Assembly (NCBI GenBank): GCA_015069045.1
Contig: SVJJ01000002.1
Coordinates: 62,001 to 126,000 of the forward strand
From: Oscillospiraceae bacterium
GTDB lineage: Bacteria > Bacillota > Clostridia > UBA1381 > UBA9506
Direction of reading: 5' to 3'
Length of the DNA stretch: 64,000 nt
Part shown: positions 31,019 through 32,782 of the stretch, in pieces
Layout of the letters: each line of letters opens with the position of its first letter
How positions within the stretch are numbered: the stretch's first letter is position 1
The notes under the pieces: model-generated
Told to the model about the DNA's origin: nothing
The model's database searches: none
Seen by the model: only the letters and a program-made list of their open reading frames with translations
Translations under genes and position numbers: made by a program

Positions 31019-31055
31019 AAAAAGGGACTGTATAGGGTGTGTACTCTTAAGGACA
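31019..31055 (+). repeat. Left terminal inverted repeat
   Basis: Starts AAAAAGGGACTGTATA and ends CTTAAGGACA; these outer 16 and inner 10 bases are identical to the reverse complement of 32746-32782, while the 11 bases between differ. Confidence 0.75.
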
Positions 31056-31062
31056 GTAATTT

Positions 31063-31100
31063 TAAAAGGCAGAAACGAAATCAATCGTTTCTGCCTTTTA
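31063..31100. terminator. Left subterminal hairpin, terminator-like
   Basis: A 16-bp perfect stem (31063-31078 with 31085-31100), 6-base loop, ending CTGCCTTTTA. It may end transcription of the YdcF-family gene, or serve the element as a recognised hairpin. Confidence 0.75.
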
Positions 31101-31106
31101 TCGTAA

Positions 31107-31128
31107 GGGACGATGCCCACATCGTCCC
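31107..31128. repeat. REP-like hairpin A
   Basis: GGGACGATG (31107-31115), loop CCCA, CATCGTCCC (31120-31128). Similar in layout to hairpin B; together they resemble REP-type sequences near RAYT genes. Confidence 0.6.
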
Positions 31129-31160
31129 GTTTTAAGGTCTTAGGATTATCCTTAATATTT

Positions 31161-31181
31161 GGAAGATGCCATACATCTTCC
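31161..31181. repeat. REP-like hairpin B
   Basis: GGAAGATG (31161-31168), loop CCATA, CATCTTCC (31174-31181). It shares GATGCC and CATC with hairpin A while the outer stem pairs differ together. Confidence 0.6.
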
Positions 31182-31205
31182 CTGCTTGTTATAGTAGCGG
31201 ACAAA

Positions 31206-31901
31206 TTATTGGTAAAAGCCTGCATTACCCAATGTTGTAGTTCCGCTTGAGTATGATGTAAAAAATTGAATTTTAAAATCGTTACAACCTGTTATATCAA
31301 TATCAATATTAACTGGTCTTGATGTTTTATCTAATTCTGGAGAAGTATATATAGTTTTTCCATCAGCAATTATTTTTATATATTTTGTACCACTCACAGT
31401 GCCTTCGCGCATGTATAACGTTGCTTTAAAACGGCTGTATTTCATATTTAGCAAATATTCAATTTCACTACCACTGTACTGAATCTGTATGCCATCACTA
31501 TACCTATTGCCGTAATTATCAACAAGAGCATCTCCACTTAATATATGATAGTCATCACCACTAATATTTTTTAAGTCGGTAATATATTTTGTTGGGAACT
31601 CAAGTTTTCCATCCATATCGCCAAGATAAACCGTATATTCAGGGCCATCCCAATAAACTGCTTTTCCTAAAGCATCTGCCACAGCTCGCACTGGAAGATA
31701 TGTAGTACCATTATAAATCATCGGCTCAACTCTGTTGCCGTTAGCATCCGTTGGATTTAATTTCTTTCCATCAACAACAATCTTGATGCCGTTTGCAACA
31801 ACATCATATAATGTTGTTGTGTTAGCAGCAATAGCCGCCCCGCCTGTAATTGTCGTTCCAATCAACGCACCAGCAATTAATCCTTGTAATCTTTTCTTCA
31901 T
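31206..31901 (-). CDS. Secreted stalk-domain/NPCBM-like protein (element cargo)
   Basis: The 231-residue protein has a signal peptide (MKKRLQGLIAGALIGTTITG and on to about residue 27), then a copper-amine-oxidase N-terminal-like 'stalk' domain (about 30-95; KIVVDGKKLNP, YNGTTYLPVRAVADALGKAV) and a C-terminal beta domain resembling NPCBM carbohydrate-binding modules (about 130-231; RPVNIDIDITGCNDFKIQF). It is exported and probably cell-surface attached or sugar-binding; no enzymatic residues are evident. It lies inside the mobile unit, divergent from the transposase, as a passenger. A TTTGGAGG-type ribosome binding site precedes it. Confidence 0.75.
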   Translation of the reverse strand: MKKRLQGLIAGALIGTTITGGAAIAANTTTLYDVVANGIKIVVDGKKLNPTDANGNRVEPMIYNGTTYLPVRAVADALGKAVYWDGPEYTVYLGDMDGKLEFPTKYITDLKNISGDDYHILSGDALVDNYGNRYSDGIQIQYSGSEIEYLLNMKYSRFKATLYMREGTVSGTKYIKIIADGKTIYTSPELDKTSRPVNIDIDITGCNDFKIQFFTSYSSGTTTLGNAGFYQ

Positions 31902-31947
31902 AGTGTTTTACCTCCAAACGTTTAATTGTGATTTAATAGTTAAAAGT

Positions 31948-31976
31948 ATTATAACATATAATTCCTCTAAATGCAA
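31948..31976 (-). promoter_or_regulatory. Promoter of the stalk-domain gene
   Basis: On the minus strand TTGCAT (31971-31976), 17 bases, TATAAT (31948-31953). The -35 overlaps one arm of a dyad whose other arm lies just before the divergent small gene. Confidence 0.65.
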
Positions 31977-32031
31977 TACATTTGTTATGCATACGGCAAA
32001 ACTATATTTATATATAATTGTATTGCAGAGG
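31964..32031. promoter_or_regulatory. Dyad spanning the divergent control region
   Basis: CCTCT-aaa-TGCAATACA (31964-31980) is mirrored by TGTATTGCAGAGG (32019-32031). The arms flank the divergent promoter region, one over the stalk-gene -35 and one over the ribosome binding site of the small gene, so they are candidate operator half-sites or a transposase hairpin. Confidence 0.5.
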
Positions 32032-32038
32032 TGATTAT

Positions 32039-32212
32039 ATGAAAAAGTTTAAGATTCCATCTATTCCGCCAACAACTAATAAATGTATCAGATTTCCAAA
32101 TGATATAATTGATGCTGTGGAAAAGGCAATAGAAGGCAAAAATTGTACATTTACTGCTTTTGTTGTTGAATCAGTTCGAGTTGCATTAGAAAACATTGAA
32201 GATGAAAAATAA
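32039..32212 (+). CDS. Small ribbon-helix-helix-like protein
   Basis: A 57-residue protein starting MKKFKIPSIPPTTNKCIRFP, with a short beta-like segment KCIRFPNDIIDAVEKAIEG followed by two helices ending ESVRVALENIEDEK. This layout (strand-helix-helix, about 45 residues) matches ribbon-helix-helix DNA-binding proteins, many of which occur beside RAYT genes. AGAGGTGATT is its ribosome binding site. Its end overlaps the transposase start by 11 bases, so the two are translationally coupled. Inference: a repressor or accessory factor of the transposase. Confidence 0.7.
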   Translation: MKKFKIPSIPPTTNKCIRFPNDIIDAVEKAIEGKNCTFTAFVVESVRVALENIEDEK

Positions 32213-32726
32213 TTTACCAAAACGAAAATCAACAAGATTAAAAGGGTATGATTATTCTGCACCCGGTGCATATTTTGTTACAATTTGCGTGAAAGACAGA
32301 AAAGAATTATTATCAAAGATAATTGTAGGGACAGGCGTCCTCGACTGTCCGCAAAACATATTAACAAATTACGGAGAAATTGCAAACAAACATCTTCAAA
32401 ACATGAGTGATTTTTATGAAGATATTAAATTGACAAAGTTTGTAATAATGCCAAATCATATTCATTTGTTGATTCAAATATTAGAAACAAACAAATCAAA
32501 CGGACCGTCGGGGACGCCGGTCCCTACAAATTCGGAGATGGCAAAATTCGTCAGTACATTTAAAAGGTTTTGCAACAAGGAATATGGCGAAAATATATGG
32601 CAGGCTCGTTCAAACGACCATATTATCCGCGATGAAATGGACTATCGAAAAATATGGGAATACATAGACACAAACCCTTTAAAATGGGAAAAAGATTGTT
32701 TTTATAACAGCGAAACGCCGATGTGA
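32202..32726 (+). CDS. REP-associated tyrosine transposase (RAYT, Y1/HUH)
   Basis: The 174-residue protein is a Y1-type single-strand transposase. Visible are the N-terminal KRKSTRLKGYDYSAPGAYFV, the HUH motif in VIMPNHIHLLIQI (two His around one residue), and the C-terminal DHIIRDEMDYRKIWEYIDTN with WQ just before it, typical of the RAYT group. Such enzymes cut and move REP sequences. I chose ATG 32202; a TTG six bases upstream is weaker. The gene itself contains two REP-like hairpins in frame (32325-32350 and 32502-32527), read as IIVGTGVLDCP and NGPSGTPVPTN. Looks intact. Confidence 0.9.
   Translation: MKNNLPKRKSTRLKGYDYSAPGAYFVTICVKDRKELLSKIIVGTGVLDCPQNILTNYGEIANKHLQNMSDFYEDIKLTKFVIMPNHIHLLIQILETNKSNGPSGTPVPTNSEMAKFVSTFKRFCNKEYGENIWQARSNDHIIRDEMDYRKIWEYIDTNPLKWEKDCFYNSETPM
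32325..32350 (+). repeat. REP-like hairpin 1 inside RAYT gene
   Basis: A 26-base unit starting GTAGGGAC; stem GGACAG (32329-32334) with CTGTCC (32345-32350) and a 10-base loop GCGTCCTCGA. It is homologous to 32502-32527 in reverse. Confidence 0.75.
32502..32527 (-). repeat. REP-like hairpin 2 inside RAYT gene, inverted
   Basis: On the minus strand 23 of 26 bases equal hairpin 1. Stem GGACCG/CGGTCC replaces GGACAG/CTGTCC, a paired A-T to C-G change, which implies the hairpin itself is under selection. Confidence 0.75.
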
Positions 32727-32743
32727 ATTTCACATCGGCGTTT
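32713..32743. terminator. Right subterminal hairpin over the RAYT stop codon
   Basis: A near-perfect dyad: AAACGCCGATGTGA against TCACATCGGCGTTT around a 3-base ATT loop. The TGA stop codon of the transposase lies in the left arm. GTTTATT follows; it acts as terminator and/or element-end hairpin. Confidence 0.75.
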
Positions 32744-32745
32744 AT

Positions 32746-32782
32746 TGTCCTTAAGAACACCGCGCATATACAGTCCCTTTTT
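32746..32782 (-). repeat. Right terminal inverted repeat
   Basis: Reverse complement starts AAAAAGGGACTGTATA and ends CTTAAGGACA, matching 31019-31055. Confidence 0.75.

Follow-up and report, generated by a model that had tools for sequence, protein, structure and literature searches.

An inverted pair of in-frame REP units in a RAYT gene and its place in an apparently exchangeable core

Why should a gene for a REP transposase carry two REP units inside its own reading frame, in opposite orientation? The locus that raises this question lies in a window (the whole stretch of 64,000 nucleotides analysed) from an Oscillospiraceae genome, and it bears on the broader issue of how a RAYT keeps a matching REP type and by what route new families of REPs originate. 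A preliminary description had placed two oppositely oriented units within the transposase gene, and this placement is confirmed; it had regarded them as a REPIN-like substrate tolerated in flexible loops of the protein. The features concerned, in order along the window, are these:

31019-31059, + strand: left terminal inverted repeat of a putative composite element; related ends occur in other genomes
31063-31100, + strand: end hairpin adjoining the left terminal repeat; the order terminal repeat, hairpin, REP recurs in other genomes
31103-31129, + strand: REP-like unit of a different type (GTAAGGGACGATGCCCACATCGTCCCG), the type found inside RAYT genes L008, L128, L142 and L143
32039-32212, + strand: small gene of the YlcI/YnfO family, probably ribbon-helix-helix, overlapping the RAYT start
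32202-32726, + strand: RAYT / TnpA-REP gene, 174 aa, with HUH motif NHIH, WQ and tyrosine motif YIDTNP
32325-32351, + strand: REP unit, site 1 (GTAGGGACAGGCGTCCTCGACTGTCCG), GTAG foot plus hairpin, encoding VGTGVLDCP
32352-32500, + strand: inter-arm segment, encoding helix A, beta strands and the HUH motif NHIH (about 32454-32465)
32501-32527, - strand: REP unit, site 2 (GTAGGGACCGGCGTCCCCGACGGTCCG), inverted, encoding GPSGTPVPT
32535-32585, + strand: helix alpha-C (model residues 112-128), counterpart of the REP-hairpin-binding helix in E. coli TnpA-REP
32742-32782, + strand: right terminal inverted repeat, 80% complementary to the left one

The pair itself is real, but its units, originally given as 26 bases with 23 identical, are 27 nt each when begun at the GTAG foot and agree at 24 of 27 positions, a level of match that arose in 0 of 100 shuffles of the window. 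The remaining details hold: positions 9 and 22 pair in the stem and change together from A-T to C-G, the third difference (position 17) lies in the loop, and the ORF runs in frame through both units, as IIVGTGVLDCP and NGPSGTPVPTN. With the flanking TT included, the inverted repeat extends to 29 nt at 90% complementarity across a spacer of 149 nt. As single-stranded DNA (GTAG strand) both units fold to ....((((((.((....)).))))))., a hairpin of eight pairs after an unpaired GTAG, with energies of -8.7 and -9.6 kcal/mol (z -3.65 and -2.67), and both thus show the 5' GTAG tag right before a G+C-rich hairpin that marks the GTAG superfamily of REPs. Among 20 distinct units of this sequence class, five of the eight stem pairs have changed on both sides with 100% of cells paired, a percentage biased by the hairpin criterion used to gather the units; the covariation score, free of that bias, is 0.509 against 0.118 when shuffled. 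A chance origin of the pair is ruled out by the shuffles, the hairpin z scores and the orientation scan of 98 genes reported below. What stands of the earlier reading, then, is a RAYT gene containing true GTAG REPs with a covarying stem, dispersed also in relatives; what does not stand is the REPIN (or BIME) unit, since an inverted pair is present but its 149-nt spacer is coding sequence. No second copy of the inverted-pair unit was found in the window genome.

The RAYT ORF is intact, with a possible alternative TTG start at 32196. Its protein scores below the cut-offs of the NCBIfam model REP_Tyr_transpos (E 7.6e-16; 58.3 bits against 80) and of Pfam Y1_Tnp (18.7 against 23), and its closest solved relative, by sequence (E 6.5e-4) and by fold (E 1.9e-7), is E. 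coli TnpA-REP with its REP hairpin bound (PDB 4ER8), followed in the fold search by IS608 and ISDra2. H86, H88, Q134 and Y154 are invariant, or nearly so, across an alignment of 45 sequences, and the HUH motif, WQ, single catalytic tyrosine motif and Y1 fold together identify a RAYT / TnpA-REP protein. The signature of subclass 2.4, reportedly the same as RAYT group 4 of Bertels 2017, is likewise present (NHIH, IWQ and YIDTNP, with T at the consensus N, plus two in-frame REPs). The organization of an IS200/IS605-group element, which is multicopy and bounded by subterminal hairpins, is absent: the REPs sit within the gene, and the host genome holds no further full RAYT copy, only a broken and divergent second one. 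As had been supposed, both sites form loops in the predicted protein: AlphaFold places site 1 at the tip of a beta-hairpin (residues 42-50, between strands 38-41 and 51-54) and site 2 in a low-confidence loop (residues 98-109, pLDDT below 50) just before the helix at 112-128.

The gene also lies within a putative composite element (31019-32782) that has 41-nt terminal inverted repeats, end hairpins and, at the left end, the REP of another type. Its genes comprise one with NPCBM and copper-amine-oxidase N-terminal domains, on the other strand, the YlcI/YnfO-like gene and the RAYT, the last two likely forming one operon. Ends of this kind, a terminal repeat followed by a hairpin, were detected in 10 of the 41 genomes searched, one to three per genome, usually with a REP directly inside.

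The pair is no private property of this gene, for the two-site architecture is conserved among its homologues. In a first set of 69 distinct homologues, mostly from Oscillospiraceae or other Clostridia of ruminant guts and from relatives (most sequences compared here come from metagenome-assembled genomes, MAGs), a GTAG hairpin occupies both sites in 60; the proposed alignment thus finds the loops filled as a rule, and empty at one or both sites in some relatives. A scan of both strands in 98 genes gave 73 coding-strand matches at site 1, 75 opposite-strand matches at site 2 and just 14 elsewhere (9.4 expected from shuffled genes). Between genes the site-1 units are diverse (30 distinct, 24-27 nt in length), whereas the two arms of one gene are closely matched, with a mean identity of 0.959 against 0.759 when arms are permuted between genes (best of 10,000 permutations, 0.806). 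At fourfold degenerate sites, compared only where two genes share the encoded residue, identity is 0.71-0.98 within the arms against 0.32-0.59 in the remainder of the gene, which is near random; therefore the DNA of the arms is preserved beyond the peptide it encodes. The same sites rule out a protein-motif artefact, in which conserved residues would leave the DNA free to vary. At the level of sequence, these comparisons show a conserved, inverted two-site arrangement with matched arms maintained as DNA.

Departures from the arrangement are instructive. One REP site alone is found in L025, L135, L138, L140 and L148, and none in L091; such relatives support insertion into pre-existing loops, and the one-site lineages indicate that the pair is dispensable. 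In L025, L138 and L140, site 1 is empty and site 2 filled, and a third REP (GTAGGGAATGCATTTATGCATTCC) lies on the coding strand after alpha-C, making another inverted pair shifted along the gene. In L058, L061 and L069 one of the two sites holds an in-frame tandem array of REPs, with as many as four or more units, which lengthens the loop by up to about 50 residues.

Outside the gene, the window REP is not found in the host genome at up to 3 mismatches, so that a count there yields the two intragenic copies only, in an assembly 97.5% complete with a small gap remaining. The pattern GTAGGG-N17-CCCG also has no match there, a weak result, as the window pair does not fit this pattern either. Relatives are richer, with 61 copies of the 26-mer in G076, 16 in G068, 14 in G025 and 10 in G012, and none for a reversed-pattern control. 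Two observations had been named beforehand as jointly telling against the earlier reading, and their outcome is divided: the lack of other copies was encountered in the host genome, and homologues keeping the residues with no hairpin-forming codons were not. In the genus g11, the cognate genome is the richest in its own REP type for two of the three types tested: the L027 type has 32 copies in its host G055 and 4-8 in the other genomes sharing the locus, the L028 type 104 in G042 and 12-71 elsewhere, and the L029 type 52 in G046, exceeded by G054 (59) and G042 (53), with 16-22 in the others. Each g11 genome compared also carries REP types of cores now absent from it, a mixture that fits earlier core turnover without proving it. 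REPs of the GTAGGGGCG type number 96-169 in each of the genomes G036, G039, G042, G046, G049, G054 and G055, where several REP types are mixed per genome, often as inverted pairs.

If REP type is a property of the gene, with which part of the protein does it vary? Similarity of the arms between genes tracks similarity of helix alpha-C (partial r 0.42) and, to a lesser degree, of the inter-arm segment (0.19), and does not track the N-terminal (0.02) or C-terminal (0.00) parts, in Mantel comparisons that control incompletely for relatedness. By alignment to 4ER8, alpha-C is the counterpart of helix alpha-3 of E. coli TnpA-REP, which contacts the REP hairpin (PMC8266576). Alpha-C also adjoins site 2, and therefore linkage alone could yield part of the correlation. 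With these qualifications, the comparison shows that REP type covaries with the reader helix and not with the ends of the protein.

Those ends behave differently from what lies between them. In 19 gene pairs, N- and C-terminal DNA identity exceeds 78% where identity of the helix DNA is below 55%. The clearest case is a single g11 locus beside a purH-like gene (neighbours identified by translation only), occupied by L020, L021, L022, L027, L028 and L029: in the six genomes the flanks on both sides are 90-96% identical, and between them stand four unrelated cores with four REP types. L022 and L029, for example, agree at about 0.96 up to gene nt 80, at 0.0-0.72 in the core, and again at 0.9 from nt 446 through the downstream gene; L027 differs from the others in its C-terminal part as well. 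L019 and L031 resemble a second swapped-core locus. By the same measure the window gene is itself mosaic, having ends (a shell) 85% identical to those of L011 with a core only 37% identical, and a core 71% identical to that of L038 within a shell only 50% identical. In protein trees, five of the g11 ends (L027 left out) form one clade with support 98 and the cores fall in four places; an AU test on the six g11 cores, with 62 protein columns, nevertheless did not reject a single clade (p 0.144), and the mosaic claim therefore rests on the DNA comparison, which shows that entire cores have been exchanged in situ while the N- and C-terminal ends stayed nearly the same. As REP type varies with the reader helix, and four cores with four REP types share one locus, the pair appears to belong to an exchangeable specificity core. 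A truncated RAYT in genome G005 (L026/L168) has two arms of different REP types and is possibly a recombinant between cores.

Several RAYT remnants have lost all or nearly all of the inter-arm segment. In L031 two half-REPs are fused, in frame, into a double-foot palindrome; L030 and the second copies of L066 and L090 have other joints, in or beside REPs, and G007 has a second remnant with this gap. In L142, L143 and L145, from genome G003 and the window's own genome, the RAYT copies begin exactly at the site-1 GTAG, behind a module of terminal repeat plus hairpin; L145, on contig 18, is the second RAYT of the window genome, a broken copy of this kind that carries a stop codon. Both kinds of derivative can be explained by recombination between REPs or by slippage, with no action of the enzyme.

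On balance we think it probable that the core of the gene, a hairpin reader with its two cognate REPs, is conserved and exchanged as a unit, and that its arms seed REP populations. The two GTAG REPs sit in frame at fixed loop positions of a RAYT resembling subclass 2.4. These two units, the HUH segment that separates them and the hairpin-reading helix that follows would make up a specificity core in which reader and target are combined, and homologous recombination at the conserved coding ends would replace this core as a whole. The arms would keep their match by moving as one, and also because a gene with functional cognate REPs of its own could start or renew a population of REPs in any genome that it enters. 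Since the two REPs are inverted, each single strand bears one REP and one reverse complement, and the arrangement would present one recognisable REP whichever strand is single-stranded. We infer that the arms may serve in this way as seeds, as targets on either strand and as drivers of core exchange. The window genome, with a RAYT and only two internal REPs, would represent a seed-only stage, though it may also have lost its dispersed copies or never had them. That the enzyme itself nicks its intragenic REPs in single-stranded DNA and so replaces the core of another RAYT, rewriting reader and target in one in-frame step, is a bolder proposal and an unlikely one.

The arms could also be passive passengers, old REP insertions in tolerant loops and with no role, which look conserved because the RAYT rewrites REPs throughout the genome, its own copies included. 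This we regard as possible but rather doubtful. In-frame loop REPs have already been published for subclass 2.4 and for unrelated genes, the model has a loop at each site, site 1 is empty in some homologues, and in-frame multiplication has been tolerated in L058, L061 and L069; mere tolerance, however, is exceeded by the near-absolute rule of site and orientation, by the correlation with the reader helix and by the fourfold-site conservation, although rewriting by the RAYT could mimic the last of these. It is quite improbable that the arms serve mainly in the transcript, pairing into an extended stem that prevents translation or attracts RNase III, with the protein competing for it: RNA of 32300-32550 does fold with the arms paired (-73.8 kcal/mol, z -8.06), and bacterial REPs are thought to act in transcripts, yet each arm retains its own hairpin and GTAG foot, the same units are dispersed in genomes, and single-site lineages could form no such stem. 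The deletion derivatives with joints inside or beside REPs (L031, L030, the second L066 and L090 copies), and the same gap in the G007 remnant, would be expected if the pair bounded a REPIN-like mobile segment, so that the enzyme could remove its own HUH segment. Slipped mispairing explains such deletions too, since the palindromes contain short direct repeats, and the inter-arm segment was nowhere found free in the genomes compared; furthermore the reverse complement of a REP is no substrate for E. coli TnpA-REP (PMC8266576), which, with one arm of each sense per strand, argues against simple self-excision and makes the excisable segment highly improbable. Self-targeting or autoregulation through gene-borne REPs, as first suggested, is unproven.

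Under the favoured reading, of a core carrying a reader and two copies of its target, matched specificity would pass on as a single block, both by descent and by transfer. The natural core swaps at the g11 locus offer ready-made chimeras for mapping how residues read hairpins, and the mixed REP populations of g11 genomes may be fossils of earlier cores.

Among known systems the nearest is subclass 2.4 of Quentin et al. 2018, in which REPs are inserted in frame within the transposase gene (PMC6006769); the mere presence of in-frame REPs is therefore not new. The window gene shares the NH[IFV]H, WQ and YIxxNP motifs, the long canonical GTAG REPs and the in-frame REPs of that group, but the main text of that paper places insertions generally between HUH and Y, whereas here there is a second fixed site before HUH, an inverted matched pair and a core exchanged as a unit. 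E. coli TnpA-REP (RAYT group 2, PDB 4ER8), the best match in sequence and fold, has the same GTAG foot plus hairpin, but its REPs flank the gene and the bulge in their stem is not the same. Di Nocera 2013 described intragenic GTAG/CGTC REPs and Rickettsia palindromic elements, in frame and thought to lie in loops; those palindromes enter unrelated proteins, whereas here the host belongs to the REP transposase family itself and positions and orientation are conserved. The element resembles the TIRYT / TIRtron of the same author in having a RAYT-type gene bounded by long terminal inverted repeats; for TIRtrons the published terminal motif is GGGGWSAS, and the ends of the window element are a module of terminal repeat, hairpin and REP. 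No account of a fixed inverted pair, of matched arms or of in-place exchange of a core with reader and target was found within the accessible literature; Figure S10 of PMC6006769 may show part of this. We regard the two-site orientation rule, the matching of arms within a gene and the swapping of cores together with REP type as new here. A parallel, by analogy only, is offered by the HsdS subunit of Type I restriction systems, in which target-recognition domains are shuffled and the specificity region is exchanged between constant ends. Unlike HsdS, the exchanged RAYT core also carries copies of its DNA target.
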